Shown here piece after piece: positions 41,329-48,764 of a DNA stretch of 64,000 bases. Position 1 is the stretch's first letter, and the number at the start of each line of letters is the position of its first letter. The position numbers were made by a program, and so were the translations under genes. This stretch comes from Vibrio pelagius (GTDB lineage Bacteria > Pseudomonadota > Gammaproteobacteria > Enterobacterales > Vibrionaceae): assembly GCF_024347575.1 (NCBI RefSeq), contig NZ_AP025504.1, positions 806,001 to 870,000 of the forward strand. The letters run 5' to 3'. The notes beneath the pieces were generated by a model. That model saw nothing but the letters and a program-made list of their open reading frames with translations, was not told the origin of the DNA and did no database searches.

Positions 41329-42012
41329 TTATTGAGCCTGACTGACGAGTGCTTTCGCCGTCATGGTTTCAATATTGCTGCTATCTTTCTCTTCCATTAC
41401 AGCCAACCAAGTCTGTGCTTGTGCGAAGTCTTGTGCTCGAATCGAAGCGGTAATCGCATAGCGGTAAATCCAAGCGGTAGCAGCAAAGTTTTGGTGTGAG
41501 AACTCCTCTTCAGACAGCAGGTCTAAATAGAGGTCATAGCCACGGTCAAAATGGTTAAACATATCTGGAAGTGAGGTATAGGTGGTCGCCGCCATCGCGC
41601 GGGTGAGATAGGCTTCTGGCAAGCCTTGAACTCTCGCCTGTTCAGTCACAGGCTGTTCGATGCTATTTAAGAGAGTCAAAGACTTATCGATGGTCGCGAG
41701 CCCTTTTTCGACATACTTCATCTTATTCCAAGGCAGAAAAGCATCGCGCCCTTGCAGGGTTTCTGTACTACCCAAGTAGACCAAGGTCAGCGGTGTTGCC
41801 CCCTCTTTGTCGAGGATCGATTTCAGCGCATCATGCGCTGCTTCAACCATCTCTTCATCACCTTGAGCAGCTTGATTATACATAGAGAGTGCTTCTGGCG
41901 TTGGGTTTGCCCATGCCGGTGCATTTACTGCTAGCCCAAAGGCAAGTGTTGATACAAAGAGAGACGTTTTAATCGATTGCAGTGAATTGACTGGGGTGTG
42001 ACTTGCTTTCAT
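41329..42012 (-). CDS. Exported helical (TPR-like) protein, first gene of the envelope operon
   Basis: The 227-residue protein has a signal peptide (SLFVSTLAFGLAVNAPAWA) and a mature part of paired helices resembling tetratricopeptide repeats, for example EAYLTRAMAATTYTSLPDMFNHFDRGYDLY. The ATG at 42012 was preferred over an open frame to 42093 because GGAAAGGGAA stands before it and the signal then begins properly. No named family is recognised. As the first gene of the operon with the ABC exporter, it could be a periplasmic cofactor. Confidence 0.65.
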   Translation of the reverse strand: MKASHTPVNSLQSIKTSLFVSTLAFGLAVNAPAWANPTPEALSMYNQAAQGDEEMVEAAHDALKSILDKEGATPLTLVYLGSTETLQGRDAFLPWNKMKYVEKGLATIDKSLTLLNSIEQPVTEQARVQGLPEAYLTRAMAATTYTSLPDMFNHFDRGYDLYLDLLSEEEFSHQNFAATAWIYRYAITASIRAQDFAQAQTWLAVMEEKDSSNIETMTAKALVSQAQ

Positions 42013-42501
42013 CTTGGTATTCCCTTTCCTGTTTTGATGATGAAAGGTTAACCACAAACTGTCACGCCGTTTTATCAATGCGACGAATGGCAATTATGAG
42101 GAGTGAATGGTTGAGTTGGGAAATGAATGGAAAATTCGAAAAGAAGGAATACAACAGATAGGTCAATACATAATCTGATATTGCCCAATTTAGGCCTAAA
42201 TCAGAGCTGACTCATTTCTGCCCCAAAGTGCGTTAGCACTAAAAATCCAGCCTATTTCACACGCTGATAACTGGCTTAAAAATTCTAATAGATTGGGTTG
42301 CCATCTTTTGTAACTTGTGATCATTTGAGCTAAAAAATTAATTTTAAGCACACTTCACCATTCTATGGTTAGATTGCTTGTATCGGGTAAGTGATTGTAT
42401 TCATATCATCCTACCGTATTTTGCTATAAAATTTGAAAATTAGTGAGACTTGTGCACAGAAAGACTCATGAATTTCATTGTGCGCCTTATGGAGATGAGA
42501 A
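42013..42501. other. Gene-free junction before the STAND gene
   Basis: This stretch of about 490 bases is AT-rich to the right and has no gene that I can support. It must contain the leftward promoter of the envelope operon and the rightward promoter of the large gene. A candidate extended -10, TTGCTATAAA (42421-42430), lies about 70 bases before the start. GGAGATGAG serves as ribosome site. No flanking repeats or attachment-like sequence were seen. Confidence 0.5.
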
Positions 42502-45500
42502 ATGAGTAACGATGTCAAACAACAGAGCAATCCATTTTCTACTGGAGGTGGTGGCGTAAACTTTGAAACTAGAGTTCAAGCAGCTTTTGTACTGTCATTG
42601 CTAACAAAATCTTGTGTTCCTTGTTTATCACAGTCTATGAGGGCAAAAGAGTTAAAATTTCAGAATAAATATGATGGTGTAAATACGGATGACTTTGTTT
42701 TAGTTGCGACTGATAAAGCAAATAACAAAAGTCAACTTTTTGCTCAGATTAAGCACGAAATAACTATAACTGCGTCTGCTGATTCAATGTTCGCTGAAGT
42801 TATTAACAGTGCATGGAAAGATTTTAAAAGTACTAGGTTTAACTTTGAAAATGATTCAATTGCATTAATAACTGGACCAATGCCAAAGCTTGATGTTAAT
42901 AATACTCTCCCTATATTGGAATGGGCTAAATACTCGTCAAACTCAGAAGACTTTATTAAAAAATCAAAAACTAAAGGTTTTACCAGTAAGGCAAAGCTCA
43001 ACAAGCTAAACATATTCAGATCACAATTAACCAATGCTAATGACGGAGATGAAATTACTGATGACGAATTATGGCTATTCTTGAGATCTTTTCAGTTAAT
43101 TTCCTTCGATTTAGATGCCAAATATTCAACCGTTGCAAATTTGTTATGCTCATTAATTGAATATTACACTGATGAATCACCATCTCTTGTTTTTTCTAAA
43201 TTAGTTACTTGTGCACAAGAATTTAACCAAAATGCTGGAACATTAACTCAAAACAATGTGCCTGAAGAAGTTAAATCATTATTTAATATGGCAAGTAAAG
43301 TTAATTTTGAAAGTGATTTCATAAAGTTTAAGGAGCGTAGTGATCATATTTTTGAAGGAATATCAAATACTATTAATGGTTTTCATATAGATCGAGAGGA
43401 GCAACTGGCAAAAATATCTGAACTATACGGTGTAAATGACTTTATTTTTGTTACCGGCACTAGAGGTGTTGGAAAGTCAGGTGTTGTAAAAGATTTTATC
43501 TCAACGAAAGGTAAAGATGTACCAGTTTTCTATTTAAGAGCTGAAGATTTAGATAAAAGCCACCTTAATGATGTATTTACATCTATCGGAATGAATTCCA
43601 CATTAGGGCAAATTGAAGGGTACTTCTCGTTACTTAACGAAAAAATACTTGTTATTGAATCTCTAGAAAAAATTTTAGAGCTAAATCACCAAGATGCTTT
43701 TTTAGACCTGCTTCAATACATAAAAAATCAATCGGGTTGGACTATTATTGCTACTGGGCGTGATTATGCATATCAACAACTTACTTTTAATTATCTTCAG
43801 CCTAGTGCTATCCAGTTTGACAGTGTAAATGTAGAGGGGCTTACCACTGTTCAAGTTACCCATGTCTGTGAAAATATTCCTGAACTAACAGGGATAATAT
43901 CTAATGATTCATTAGTTGAATTACTTAAAGTACCATTTTTTATCGAGATTGCAGTAAGAGCCATTGGTAATGGCGCACAATTTAAATCTGGTGACACTGA
44001 AGTAAACTTTAGAAATACTGTTTGGGCAACAGTCATTTCAAAAGAAGCAGATAGAAAATCAGGAATGCCGTATAAACGAAGAACAACGTTTATTAATATT
44101 GCAAAACAACGTGCAAAGAAAATGCTGTTTGGTATTAGAGCTAATGAGTTTGATCCAGAAGTAGTTGCAAAATTGGAAGAAGATCATTTAATTCACCGTG
44201 ACCAGAAGTCTGCCACTATCAGTCCTATGCATGATGTCTTAGAAGATTGGGCATTAGAAGAATACATTGATGGCGAGTATGTTGAAAATTCACATGACTT
44301 AGTTAACTTTTTATTAACTATTGGTAATGAGCCGGCAATAAGTAGGGCTTTTCGATTATGGCTTTATAGCAGATTAAAGTCTGATAATGCAACCGATGAA
44401 TTTGTTGAAGAAATATTAACGACGGATTGTATAGAAAGTTATTGGAAGGACGAGGCTATTGCAGCGATCATGCAACATGAGTCGCCAGAAGTTTTTCTGC
44501 ATTCACTGAAGTCTCAGCTTTTAAAAGATGATTGTGCACTCTTGATCCGGTTTTGTTTTATTCTCAGAATAACCTGTCAAAGACCAAGCTCACTATATAA
44601 TGATTTATTGGCTAAAGATGAAAAATCAGGGATTTTAAAATCTTTGTTTTTACAACCGTATGGTAATGGTTGGGAAGCACTGTTTGATTTTATCTATGAG
44701 GTTAAACACGATTTAAGCGACTCTATGCTTACTCAAGTTGTTGAAGTCATCAATGAATGGTGTGGAATCATTAATATATATGATGATCTACCAAAAGCCT
44801 CTCACAAGGTTGGTTTGTTGAGTTTATGGTTGCTTGAACAAGTTAAAGATTCTTATCGTGATAAAGGGCGAAGAAAAAAAATACTTAATGCTTTGTTAAA
44901 AGTTTCAACAGCAGTTAAAGACAAATTTGATGAATTAATGGAACAGGATGTTTTCATATCCAAGGTAAAACCAAGAAGATTAGCCTATGTTGACGAGCTG
45001 ACGAGTTTGGCCCTTGTAGGCATTAACGTGCCTATGTTGTGTAAACGTTACCCCGACTTTGTTGTTAAGCTTTCACTGCATGAGTGGTTATTGCAAAAAC
45101 CAGAAGATGATGAATTCGGTTACGGTTCTTATGGCCGAGTTGATGTTGAAGAATCTTTTGGTTTAGATAGAGAACGAGATTTTTTTCCTGCAAGTGGTTC
45201 TAAAGGGCCTTTTAAGTATCTTCTTCAATCAAAACCTAGACTAGCGTTAGATTTCATTATCAAGCTATGCAATATAACGGCACGAAAATATTCAGAATCT
45301 GAATTTTCTAAACCTCATGATAATGAGGAAGAGACTATTTATGCCTATGAAACAGTCGTAAAGCAAGTAGATATAACACTCAATGATGGCACAGTAGTTA
45401 AGCAGTATTCATCACCTTATCTGTGGAAGGGCTATCGAGGACAGTCTACGTTGCCTTACCTGCTACAGTGCGGGCTTATGGCACTAGAGAATTGGTTAGT

Positions 45501-47616
45501 TGAATATATTGACAAATGTGGCGAGGACAATGAAATACAATGGATTTATGATTACTTGCTGAGAAAGAGTAACTCTGTCATGCCTACATCTGTATTATCT
45601 TCTGTAGCCACAGGCTTCCCTAATAAAGTAGGAAAAGCAGCATTTCCTTTACTGAAAACCGCTAATTTATACCATTTAGATTTGATTCGAAAGACTCAGG
45701 AAAGGGGCGGAAATGAATTTCATTTCTTTGGCTTTGACAGAGATCCAATGTCGGAAATCTACATAGAAGAGAGGAGACAAGCTGCACTTAGACCATGGAG
45801 ATGCGAGTCATTAGAAAACCTATTAATAAGGTTTCAATTCGTAAATGAGCTTAGGGATGACGCCTTAAAAATTGTCGATGAATTGAAAGCTGAAGCGGTT
45901 GACCGCAATAAAAATATTCTTCGGTATATGTTACACCGAGTTGATACAAGGACTTGGGAGGCTGTTGAGGATAAGGATAATAATCGAATATTGCTTCAAA
46001 GCTCGTCTGAACTTCCGGCTGATTTAAAGCAAGATCAACAAGAATTTAATGAAAAAAATGCAATTGATAGCATTGTAATTAGTTTAAATTTATGGGGACG
46101 AAAGCTATTCGAAGATAAATTACTAGAAGAAAAATATTTCTCTTCATATCAAGATGCATTAATAGCAGCAAAAGAATTACTCAATTCCCTCCAAAAAGGT
46201 GAAATACACAACTTTGCCGATATGGCTGTAGGTACAATAACAACCGTTGCTGCCGTTTGTGTCCGTGATGTTCTTTTAAACTTGAGCGATGAAGATAAAG
46301 AGTGGTGCCTAGGAGTTATCCTAGAGTCAATATTTATGCACGCAGATAATATGAATGGAACAACAGCACATGATAAAACTGATCATTATGGCTCTGGAGC
46401 GTGTGCATTTGTCTTACCTAAGTTATTTGATTTAGAGCTAGATTCAGAACAAGAAAAGTATTTGAAGTTTGCTTTGGCTACAGCGTTAACACATGAGAAC
46501 ATTAATGTTAGTGCTTATGCAGCTAAGGGCGTAAGGGAATTTCTTTGGTCAAGGGATGCTCAATTAGCATCCCGTTGTATAGGTGGAATAGTTGAGTACG
46601 CAAGATTCAGAAAAGAAGATAGTGTGGTACGTAGGTTCTATCATTTACAAGGTGCTGAGTTGCAAGCCGCTCACGAAAACTGGAATACTCTTATAACAAT
46701 ATTTCGCAATGAATTAATTGATGGGAAGTTTAAGCTTTCGGTTAACGATATTTCTTTGGAAAGCCACTGTTCATGGTTTTTTCATTTACCAATGTTAATG
46801 GTTCCATATTGTCCTACGGATGATGATCAGATCCAGTTGGTTAACAAGTTAGTGAATTTTGTATTTGATACTGAAAATCAAAATCATCGTTTAAGTGGTG
46901 ATGAAAAAATAAATCATGACATAATAAAACAGATCCAGGATTGTCTTTCTGAACATATTATTTTTTCAAGAAATAATAATTACATGCCCTTTAAGGAACT
47001 ATTGGTATTGGGCTGTTCAAAAGCCCCTAGTTTTATTTATTCGTTAACACTCTCATATAATGTAGTAGTAGAAAAAGAAGATGATTATGACGCTGTCTGG
47101 TCACTTTGGAGTTTGTTAGCACCAGAGGCACATAAGATAGCCATGAATGATGTCAATGATCGTTATGTAGGGTTACAGAATGATTTAAATCAGCTATTAC
47201 GTGGACTAATGCATGCGGATACTCCTTGGCAAGGTCATCCTAATGAAGAACGTGACATGAAAACTGGGGCACACTATTTATTGGGATTTGCCAACCAATC
47301 TGCGGGTAATAGCCACGTTTTTGAAGCTTTAGCATCTTTAATATATCATTTTCATGGCGTGTTCTTTGATAAAGGCATTCATTTGTTAGCTTCAAAATTC
47401 TCTGTGAATTCAGATCTTATAGGTAAGCAAATTAATACTGCTTATTATTTAGAAATGTCGATAGGACGATATCTTCAGATAGAAAATAGAGGTCCATTAA
47501 ATAGAAAAATGTATAACTCATGCCTTGAGCTACTAAATGGAATTGTAGAAACTGGTTCTGCAAGGGCTTATTATCTACGAGAGCACATGATTAGATCGAG
47601 AAAAATACGTGTTTAG
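42502..47616 (+). CDS. Giant STAND NTPase with Cap4/DUF4297-like nuclease domain (Avs-like)
   Basis: The 1704-residue protein is built like anti-phage STAND (Avs) proteins. The N-terminal part (about 10-230) looks like a Cap4/DUF4297 PD-(D/E)XK nuclease: GGGGVNFETRVQA with E22, then D63-D64, a strand, and Q82-I-K84. The central NTPase (about 290-560) has Walker A GTRGVGKS (319-326), Walker B-like ILVIES (382-387) and ATGRD (417-421). The remaining 1100 residues are helical, HEAT/TPR-like, as in target-recognition regions. Walker B has glutamate where aspartate is usual. Base composition is clearly richer in A+T than both flanks, a sign of transfer. It stands alone, with no partner gene. Confidence 0.7.
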   Translation: MSNDVKQQSNPFSTGGGGVNFETRVQAAFVLSLLTKSCVPCLSQSMRAKELKFQNKYDGVNTDDFVLVATDKANNKSQLFAQIKHEITITASADSMFAEVINSAWKDFKSTRFNFENDSIALITGPMPKLDVNNTLPILEWAKYSSNSEDFIKKSKTKGFTSKAKLNKLNIFRSQLTNANDGDEITDDELWLFLRSFQLISFDLDAKYSTVANLLCSLIEYYTDESPSLVFSKLVTCAQEFNQNAGTLTQNNVPEEVKSLFNMASKVNFESDFIKFKERSDHIFEGISNTINGFHIDREEQLAKISELYGVNDFIFVTGTRGVGKSGVVKDFISTKGKDVPVFYLRAEDLDKSHLNDVFTSIGMNSTLGQIEGYFSLLNEKILVIESLEKILELNHQDAFLDLLQYIKNQSGWTIIATGRDYAYQQLTFNYLQPSAIQFDSVNVEGLTTVQVTHVCENIPELTGIISNDSLVELLKVPFFIEIAVRAIGNGAQFKSGDTEVNFRNTVWATVISKEADRKSGMPYKRRTTFINIAKQRAKKMLFGIRANEFDPEVVAKLEEDHLIHRDQKSATISPMHDVLEDWALEEYIDGEYVENSHDLVNFLLTIGNEPAISRAFRLWLYSRLKSDNATDEFVEEILTTDCIESYWKDEAIAAIMQHESPEVFLHSLKSQLLKDDCALLIRFCFILRITCQRPSSLYNDLLAKDEKSGILKSLFLQPYGNGWEALFDFIYEVKHDLSDSMLTQVVEVINEWCGIINIYDDLPKASHKVGLLSLWLLEQVKDSYRDKGRRKKILNALLKVSTAVKDKFDELMEQDVFISKVKPRRLAYVDELTSLALVGINVPMLCKRYPDFVVKLSLHEWLLQKPEDDEFGYGSYGRVDVEESFGLDRERDFFPASGSKGPFKYLLQSKPRLALDFIIKLCNITARKYSESEFSKPHDNEEETIYAYETVVKQVDITLNDGTVVKQYSSPYLWKGYRGQSTLPYLLQCGLMALENWLVEYIDKCGEDNEIQWIYDYLLRKSNSVMPTSVLSSVATGFPNKVGKAAFPLLKTANLYHLDLIRKTQERGGNEFHFFGFDRDPMSEIYIEERRQAALRPWRCESLENLLIRFQFVNELRDDALKIVDELKAEAVDRNKNILRYMLHRVDTRTWEAVEDKDNNRILLQSSSELPADLKQDQQEFNEKNAIDSIVISLNLWGRKLFEDKLLEEKYFSSYQDALIAAKELLNSLQKGEIHNFADMAVGTITTVAAVCVRDVLLNLSDEDKEWCLGVILESIFMHADNMNGTTAHDKTDHYGSGACAFVLPKLFDLELDSEQEKYLKFALATALTHENINVSAYAAKGVREFLWSRDAQLASRCIGGIVEYARFRKEDSVVRRFYHLQGAELQAAHENWNTLITIFRNELIDGKFKLSVNDISLESHCSWFFHLPMLMVPYCPTDDDQIQLVNKLVNFVFDTENQNHRLSGDEKINHDIIKQIQDCLSEHIIFSRNNNYMPFKELLVLGCSKAPSFIYSLTLSYNVVVEKEDDYDAVWSLWSLLAPEAHKIAMNDVNDRYVGLQNDLNQLLRGLMHADTPWQGHPNEERDMKTGAHYLLGFANQSAGNSHVFEALASLIYHFHGVFFDKGIHLLASKFSVNSDLIGKQINTAYYLEMSIGRYLQIENRGPLNRKMYNSCLELLNGIVETGSARAYYLREHMIRSRKIRV

Positions 47617-47826
47617 TTATACTAATTTTCGCTTGCTCAGACTTGATCTTACAGTCATCAAGTGCGTCTTGGTGGCTGTAGGCTGTATCTGAGCCAGAAT
47701 ATTTACAATGTAGGTCTTCGATATTTTTCTCGTCTAACTTAGTAGACATAGGGCAAAGTCCTAACTCATTTTTGTCCAATAGTGAGTTTCAGTTCCAACT
47801 CTTTCACTGCATCCCTAAGTTCACAC
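47617..47826. other. Junction after the STAND gene with a possible gene remnant
   Basis: On the minus strand an open frame from a TTG at 47779 runs to 47591, into the end of the STAND gene. It contains GLCPMSTKLDEKNIEDLHCKY and a second cysteine region, DALDDCKIKSEQ. The spacing of cysteines and the charged text look protein-like, but there is no ribosome site or proper start. It may be the remainder of a small gene cut by the arrival of the STAND gene. Confidence 0.3.
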
Positions 47827-47857
47827 AAACAAAAATAGCCGCTGATTCGCGGCTATT
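47827..47857 (-). terminator. Terminator after the hydroxyacid dehydrogenase gene
   Basis: AATAGCCGC (47834-47842) pairs with GCGGCTATT (47849-47857). The minus strand continues with TTTGTTTG. Confidence 0.8.
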
Positions 47858-47888
47858 ATTAGTTATCTAAACCAAGCTTTTGTGAGTT

Positions 47889-48764
47889 TTACTTCTTAGT
47901 CTCTTCAACCACTGCTTTCATCAATACCGAAGTATCCATGCGACCTTCGCCTTGAGCAGATAGAGCTTTGTAAGCATTATTGGTTTTTTCCGTCAATGGA
48001 AGTTGAATACCTTGGCGCTCAGCTTCATCTAAACAGAAACCTAAATCTTTGATCATCCAATCAATCGCAAAGCCAAAGTCGAATTTGTTTTCCGACATCG
48101 TCACCGCGCGGTTCTCCATCTGCCATGAACCAGCAGCGCCGTTTTTAAGGCAATCAACTAGAGTTTGAATATCCAAGCCTGACTTTTCAGCAAGCACCAA
48201 GCCTTCAGATAGGCCGTTCAATACACCTGCGATACAGATCTGATTAACCATTTTCGCGCGTTGGCCTTGACCTACTTTACCCATCAGAACCGACGATTTC
48301 CCGTAAGCGTCAAATACAGGCTGAAGGTCATTGAATAGCGATTGATCACCACCACACATGATAGTCAACACACCGTTTTCTGCGCCCGCTTGACCGCCTG
48401 AAACTGGTGCATCCATGAAACGAACACCGGCTTTGCTAGCCGCAACTTCAAGCTCTTCCGATAACAGTGCAGACGTCGTAGTGTGGTCAACAAGGATTGC
48501 GTTTGGCTTCATTGCGGCCAATGCGCCCGTTTCGCTGGTTGTCATACTGCGAACGTCATCATCGTTGCCTACACAAACCAACACTACGTCAGCTTCTGCT
48601 ACACACTCCGCCACGCTCTCAGCGGCTTTACCTTGGTATTTATCAGCCCAATCGAGTGCTTTGCTGTGAGTACGGTTAAATACCGTTACTTCGAAACCGG
48701 CTTTAACTAGGTGACCTGCCATTGGGAAACCCATGACACCCAGTCCGATAAAACTTACTTTCAT
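47889..48764 (-). CDS. Beta-hydroxyacid dehydrogenase (3-hydroxyisobutyrate/tartronate semialdehyde reductase family)
   Basis: The 291-residue enzyme has the N-terminal NAD(P) motif FIGLGVMGFPMAGHL and the family motif DAPVSGGQAGAENG. It has the catalytic-lysine region GQGQRAKMVNQICIAG and the C-terminal DWMIKDLGFCLDEAERQG. It reduces or oxidises short hydroxyacids such as tartronate semialdehyde or 3-hydroxyisobutyrate. The ATG at 48764 was chosen because AGGAG stands six bases before it, although the frame is open to 48797. It lies 13 bases after a LysR gene on the same strand. Substrate cannot be fixed by sequence. Confidence 0.9.
   Translation of the reverse strand: MKVSFIGLGVMGFPMAGHLVKAGFEVTVFNRTHSKALDWADKYQGKAAESVAECVAEADVVLVCVGNDDDVRSMTTSETGALAAMKPNAILVDHTTTSALLSEELEVAASKAGVRFMDAPVSGGQAGAENGVLTIMCGGDQSLFNDLQPVFDAYGKSSVLMGKVGQGQRAKMVNQICIAGVLNGLSEGLVLAEKSGLDIQTLVDCLKNGAAGSWQMENRAVTMSENKFDFGFAIDWMIKDLGFCLDEAERQGIQLPLTEKTNNAYKALSAQGEGRMDTSVLMKAVVEETKK

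Follow-up and report, generated by a model that had tools for sequence, protein, structure and literature searches.

The 1704-residue STAND protein encoded by a lone gene in the window (the whole stretch of 64,000 nucleotides of Vibrio pelagius DNA that was analysed) is, as judged from sequence comparisons, probably an Avs4-related antiphage sensor whose nuclease differs from that of EcAvs4. Its STAND NTPase and sensor show full-length homology to Avs4, whereas its N-terminal domain is of another kind. By analogy the protein most likely works like Avs4, and the comparison as a whole suggests one detector that has been fitted with different effector weapons. The features on which this reading rests are collected in Table 1.

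Table 1. Features of the gene, its product and the surrounding insertion (positions in the window)
Feature	Position	Strand	Evidence
Acquired segment with this gene alone; longest stretch lacking blastn homology to relatives of the genus at this site	42231..47769	.	flanks compared with L063-L071
Probable ribosome-binding site GGAG	42491..42494	+	sequence reading; 7 nt 5' of the ATG; plausible
Avs4-related STAND protein, 1704 aa: effector, NTPase and sensor in a single chain	42502..47616	+	intact ORF (ATG at 42502, stop codon ending at 47616, no internal stops); Avs4 matches
N-terminal effector, residues 1-274, PD-(D/E)XK-like nuclease by motif	42502..43323	+	lies outside the Avs4 models; motif conservation
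E22, first acidic residue of the nuclease motif	42565..42567	+	at least 97% of 114; 17/19 N-termini
D63-D64, acidic pair of the nuclease motif	42688..42693	+	at least 97% of 114; invariant in a 58-row alignment; both 19/19 N-termini
Q82-x-K84, QxK nuclease motif	42745..42753	+	at least 97% of 114; both invariant in the 58-row alignment; Q82 18/19, K84 19/19 N-termini
STAND NTPase region, residues 292-520	43375..44061	+	ATPase_2 partial match; 24% identity to EcAvs4, E 1e-17
Walker A GTRGVGKS, residues 319-326	43456..43479	+	G319, G322, G324, K325 and S326 114/114
Walker B-like ILVIES, residues 382-387, Glu386 in the Asp position	43645..43662	+	E386 114/114
ATGRD, residues 417-421, conserved STAND motif	43750..43764	+	A417 112/114, T418 113/114, G419 and R420 114/114, D421 111/114
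C-terminal sensor, residues 520-1696, collinear with the EcAvs4 sensor	44059..47589	+	three sub-regions match EcAvs4

An intact gene with conserved motifs

The gene is AT-rich relative to its surroundings, as the original prediction had stated, with a GC content of 35.2% compared to 46.3% across the window outside 42001-48000. The residues named in that prediction (E22, D63-D64, Q82-x-K84, GTRGVGKS, ILVIES and ATGRD) all lie at the places assigned to them. To judge their conservation we used 114 proteins of more than 1650 aa (the query counted) among the matches listed, which were the best 120 of 622. In this set the five nuclease-motif residues are each kept in at least 97% of the sequences and the Walker A residues and E386 in all of them, so the named motifs are conserved beyond chance.

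Homology to Avs4 in the NTPase and the sensor

The protein had been predicted to follow the Avs plan of an N-terminal effector, a STAND NTPase and a long C-terminal sensor, and a search against the known Avs families, which had been proposed as a check, led to Avs4 by three routes. The PADLOC Avs4 model (PDLC02169) matched residues 275-1696 with positions 168-1569 of its 1570 (E 1e-173), the NCBIfam Avs4 equivalog NF041815 gave 655.3 bits over the same residues, which is under its cut-off of 1500 bits, and a PDB search returned EcAvs4 (8dgf, an entry with four chains) over residues 292-1696 (E 2.7e-81) as the sole solved relative whose E-value was meaningful. At E up to 1, PADLOC yielded nothing besides Avs4 and a marginal match to PDC-S01 (E 0.004), and the other Avs types were thus unmatched. 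The Pfam ATPase_2 model covered residues 296-358 (E 3e-6, under the Pfam cut-off).

The reference for the region-wise BLASTP comparisons, here and in Table 1, was an Avs4 of E. coli taken from a plasmid record (L072). In addition to the STAND region, the first part of the sensor (28% identity, E 5e-51), its middle (24%, E 9e-14) and its end (23%, E 2e-14) all aligned with this reference. The sensor scored 218 bits against EcAvs4, while 30 shuffled sensors reached at most 25 bits. Moreover, 63 positions, spanning R298 to E1694, were invariant in eight cores, three of them from the window clade and five diverged.

With regard to the Walker B-like motif, the usual aspartate is indeed lacking, as had been noticed at the outset: Glu386 stands where both EcAvs4 and a second canonical Avs4 (L004) carry Asp. 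Since glutamate occupies this position in every one of the 114 full-length sequences listed, it is a property of the branch and not a defect of the window copy, and it gives a specific, testable prediction about ATP handling. Together with the full support for the clade in the core tree (see below) and a score of 655 against the 1500 bits of the equivalog, the glutamate bears out the earlier suggestion of a distinct branch. We do not file the protein as Avs4 proper, because it lies under the equivalog score and does not carry the EcAvs4-type N-terminal domain.

The same features raise the alternative of a separate Avs type, that is, a protein with the plan and ancestry of Avs4 whose sensor recognises a different conserved protein of the phage, be it terminase, a further packaging protein or something unrelated. 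Its own fully supported clade, the regional identities of 23-28% to EcAvs4 and the invariant Walker B glutamate are consistent with this, and so is the difference in triggers among Avs types that is described in passages of PMC12931631 and PMC10286901. However, the homology is collinear from the STAND domain to the last residues, with the 63 invariant columns distributed along it, and Avs4 alone matches among the Avs models; we therefore consider a change of type rather unlikely. The joint form of this reading, in which a Gammaproteobacterial clade would combine a nuclease of its own, a Walker B glutamate that is obligatory and alters the ATP-held off state, and a shifted sensor, appears doubtful.

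The N-terminal effector domain

Residues 1-274 did not align to the Avs4 models of PADLOC or NCBIfam, and a direct comparison with the N-terminus of EcAvs4, which we take to be a nuclease of the Mrr type, gave a BLASTP E-value of 0.81 and a single aligned column in hhalign. A Pfam scan of residues 1-280 at E up to 10 returned no nuclease domain, Cap4_nuclease (PF14130) included, and a search of the window's genome with PF14130 found zero matches. A PDB profile search with the N-terminus gave chance antibody matches only, and the Pfam and NCBIfam scans of the 1704-aa protein showed no SAVED domain.

The motifs were more informative. Besides the 114 proteins, we compared 19 N-termini, 14 from outside the window clade and five from within it, and the E22-D63D64-QxK pattern was retained in both sets (Table 1). 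The PD-(D/E)XK-like N-terminus that had been proposed is thus upheld at the level of motifs, and the domain is most likely a PD-(D/E)XK-like predicted nuclease, as this conservation indicates. The epithet "Cap4-like" fared less well. The order of motifs (G..[FY][EQ], DD, QxK) is compatible with it, and hhalign against a small alignment of Pfam Cap4_nuclease matches aligned the corresponding motifs (G-rich F(E/Q), DD and QxK) in register, with a score of 16.9 that exceeded all of 20 column-shuffled templates (8.0-13.0); the probability was, however, below 1%, and in a comparison in which the Cap4 template scored 17.0 a trypsin-like control reached 15.6. Since the Pfam scan was blank, the profile comparison non-significant and the control nearly as high, "Cap4-like" is used here for the layout of the motifs and not for membership of the family. 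A comparison of deep-branching N-termini with Cap4 (score 25.1) was set aside, as one of 20 shuffles also gave 25.1.

The lack of a weighty Pfam or PDB match for residues 1-274, and a Cap4 score so close to that of the control (17.0 vs 15.6), would also suit a STAND protein whose effector has a task other than cutting DNA, such as cleaving RNA or recruiting a partner. We regard this as improbable, given that E, DD and QxK are invariant or nearly so in the 114 close sequences as well as in the 19 N-termini, most of them from outside the clade, and that the score surpassed every column shuffle in motif register.

Effectors combined with Avs4-type cores

In a 32-row core tree the window clade adjoined a group (support 94/93) made up of the EcAvs4-type rows, L110, L111 and L112; the deeper branches again carried a Cap4-like N-terminus. 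The N-terminal domain matched nine of these deep-branching proteins in a profile comparison (99.9%, E 1e-32). An EcAvs4-type N-terminus accompanies the Avs4-type core in L072, L004 and L133, and a Cap4-like one accompanies it in the window clade and L110. Constraining all Cap4-like rows to group together was borderline rejected (AU p 0.047; long branches), and because this value is borderline we do not claim effector exchange from the placement in the tree alone. The related nuclease on the deep cores hints that the Cap4-like effector was the older partner of the chassis and the Mrr-type one of Avs4 a later replacement, and we hypothesise that the Cap4-like N-terminus is ancestral on it. Related chassis with nuclease, protease-like or short N-termini amount to a natural swap experiment, in which the separability of sensing and killing can be tested.

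Several further N-termini and cores were observed in this context. In L112 (1706-9173), on a Haliscomenobacter plasmid, an Avs4-type core follows a trypsin-like N-terminus (Trypsin_2 E 8e-6, just under the Pfam cut-off), a stretch that also matches the N-terminal part of the PADLOC Avs2 model (E 9e-24). The gene lies directly 3' of genes annotated as nucleotidyltransferase, SLATT-domain and hypothetical protein, and the region is possibly a composite defence operon. L111 (4068-9203), from Calothrix, has an Avs4 core with a very short glycine-rich N-terminus and a 232-aa ORF without a Pfam match just upstream, so the effector may be supplied in trans. The nuclease-like N-terminus of the window protein was also seen on two shorter proteins: one of 1177 aa (L106:5202-8735, minus strand), whose gene lies between genes that by eye resemble P2-type prophage tail genes, matched no Pfam STAND model and no PADLOC model and is a possible STAND-less defence protein; the other, of 1187 aa (L114:5001-8564, plus strand), is encoded on a conjugative Shewanella baltica plasmid next to an annotated Abi family protein and superinfection exclusion protein B, and likewise had no PADLOC match.

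Genomic context of the gene

Nine of the nearest relatives were examined at the site, and none of the eight that have both flanking genes carries the avs gene there; a search of 60 other genomes of the genus found it in none. Broad presence at this site in relatives, which the original prediction had named as a point against itself, was thus not found. The homology to the relatives ends between 42051 and 42230 and restarts between 47770 and 47826. Within these limits (at most 42231-47769) the gene stands alone, the only other ORF of at least 80 aa being one of 96 aa that runs antisense within it. The description of the gene as alone between conserved loci therefore holds for its isolation and for the flanking genes, which are conserved in near relatives, but not for the space between them, which is variable there.

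As judged by eye, the relatives' intervening genes encode LysR regulators, sugar enzymes and other products. For the interval corresponding to 42094-47888 of the window, eight near relatives (L063-L070) had 2 to 15 kb between the flanks, filled by eye with differing, mostly metabolic- or regulatory-looking genes. The site is variable and not obviously a defence hotspot. No convincing flanking repeats or att site were seen at the insertion, no integrase or accessory gene lies within it, and Rfam gave no match across the window. When ten neighbouring ORFs of the window were scanned with PADLOC at E up to 1e-5, eight were unmatched and the other two, an ABC transporter pair, gave generic matches. 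One of 48 window ORFs scanned as a set, not among the ten singly scanned neighbours, matched the PADLOC candidate model PDC-S69 (E 4.5e-132); candidate models of this sort can match housekeeping genes.

Taxonomic distribution

The search returned 622 proteins at E up to 1e-3, of which the best 120 were considered and 17 loci examined. Among these 120, relatives with 52-88% identity over residues 1-500 came from Vibrio, Aliivibrio, Photobacterium, Acinetobacter, Proteus, Providencia, Pseudomonas and other genera. Where the listed members of the branch are named in their source annotations, they are called "hypothetical protein", "ATP-binding protein" or similar, in Vibrio, Acinetobacter, Pseudomonas, Proteus and other genera, and the NCBI Avs4 cut-off is set so that the branch lies below it. 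One Vibrio cholerae cluster of the family (P0044) comprises 539 member sequences, so the protein may be frequent among some of the V. cholerae sequenced.

In a set of 100 related genomes the query matched five, the window's own among them; of the other four, two belong to other families of the order and have full-length copies that are 86-87% identical, one has a canonical Avs4 core and the last has the N-terminal domain by itself. A same-genus genome from a later sample (G765) carries an Avs4 with an EcAvs4-type N-terminus. The core profile at E up to 1e-10 matched six of 295 genomes of the order, again counting the window's own, five near the full length of the profile and one (G1006) in part, and the N-terminal profile matched three of 369 genomes of the class, own included. 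In the same 369 genomes NF041815 gave 32 matches, all of them weak except the window's own and mostly confined to short P-loop stretches, and it also matched one of 14 control genomes; this count is therefore unusable as a measure of prevalence. Phage records contained one weak match (21.8% identity) and viral contigs zero confirmed relatives, 68 plasmid records matched but none covered 80% of the query, and a near-mode search of complete E. coli genomes with the Raoultella gene as query found zero matches.

Mobility and defence genes at related loci

At the 17 relative loci, 144 neighbouring ORFs were read and 81 of them scanned jointly, which yielded matches to 149 defence families (25 of the 149 listed). 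Since the joint tally carries no member names, ten ORFs were rescanned singly. The defence-model matches could thus be tied to only part of the 17 loci: L016 lies beside a I-F Cas3, L011 beside an LmuB-like gene and L006 beside TnsB, and the neighbours in L019 are a retron-type PRTase_III-A and the Gabija proteins GajB and GajA. Phage-integrase domains occurred in nine of the 81 ORFs, and relaxase (TrwC) and coupling-protein (TrwB) domains in single ORFs.

A similar-looking recombinase module was observed in four loci (L013:4749-9999, and also L008, L017 and L018). It consists of three large ORFs, the first two of which match tyrosine recombinases/integrases in L013, and a small ORF of 159 aa, and by eye it adjoins ssb in three of the four. 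Since the small ORF runs up to the avs ATG or overlaps it, the defence gene resembles cargo that a recombinase element carries in an operon. An assignment of the module to the gamma-mobile-trio was dropped, since one ORF gave a weak GmtY match, the second matched another integrase model and the other two were blank.

That the protein is a housekeeping or regulatory STAND ATPase and not antiphage, as the failure to find a defence partner beside it in the window might suggest, is very improbable, because the gene is missing from all 60 other same-genus genomes, is an AT-rich insertion that stands by itself at a variable site, has an 86-87% identical counterpart in other families of the order, is lower in GC than its flanks in 16 of the 17 relative loci (in L016 by 0.001; the exception is L006) and has mobile and defence neighbours at part of these loci.

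Putative mode of action

If the protein is an Avs4-related sensor, as we think probable, it would act alone as an antiphage system. The long helical C-terminus (approximately residues 520-1696) would recognise a conserved protein of the phage, with the portal as the likeliest candidate, upon which the ATP-loaded STAND domain (292-520) would assemble, probably into a tetramer. Assembly would join the PD-(D/E)XK-type nuclease domains at the N-termini (1-274) and activate them, phage and host DNA would be cut, and the infected cell would die or stall ahead of phage release. The nuclease fold and activity, the portal trigger, the oligomer and cell death are parts of this scheme that we infer by analogy.

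As to which Avs type senses which phage protein, the portal is the trigger of Avs4. According to Gao et al. 2022, EcAvs4 is reportedly a portal-binding tetramer with an Mrr nuclease. The relation of the core to Avs4 makes the portal a better guess than terminase; since the identity to EcAvs4 is only 23-28% by region, the trigger may nevertheless have changed, and a portal assignment taken from sensor homology at this level could be wrong. Passages of PMC12931631 describe Avs1-Avs4 as suicidal sensors whose nuclease effectors cut phage and host genomes upon encountering terminase, portal or another phage protein, recognition by type is treated in general form there and in passages of PMC10286901, and a passage of PMC10586772 mentions TPRs in Avs4.

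Comparison with known systems

In the literature searched we recognised no publication as describing this branch; the list of Avs N-terminal domains of Gao et al. 2022 may already include this one. Cap4-type domains (PF14130) appear to share with the window protein the order of a G-rich [FY][EQ], DD and QxK, and differ from it in that no Pfam match and no significant profile match connects the two. Such domains serve as nuclease effectors in CBASS and in other Avs types.

Deep-branching proteins of about 1700-1840 aa (L113, L115, L116, L134 and L136-L141, with Rhizobium, Polaromonas and Azospirillum among the sources) have a related N-terminal domain and a weakly similar STAND core. Their best BLASTP segments are, however, only approximately 20-23% identical. 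In the core tree nine of these ten proteins branch separately, and the tenth, L140, sits on a very long branch with unsure placement. The P4-satellite STAND-repeat proteins resemble the family in another way: according to passages of PMC9122126 they exchange TIR, SIR2 or nuclease N-termini on a chassis of STAND domain and repeats. Effector exchange on STAND-repeat proteins is thus already in print in general form, while the passages in question do not describe the family of the window protein (PMC9122126). Finally, compared with Avs4 itself (EcAvs4, 8dgf), the window protein has another N-terminal domain, a Walker B Glu instead of Asp, a score below the cut-off and a clade of its own, but it shares with Avs4 a homologous, collinear STAND NTPase, the whole of the sensor and the layout of a single-gene system.
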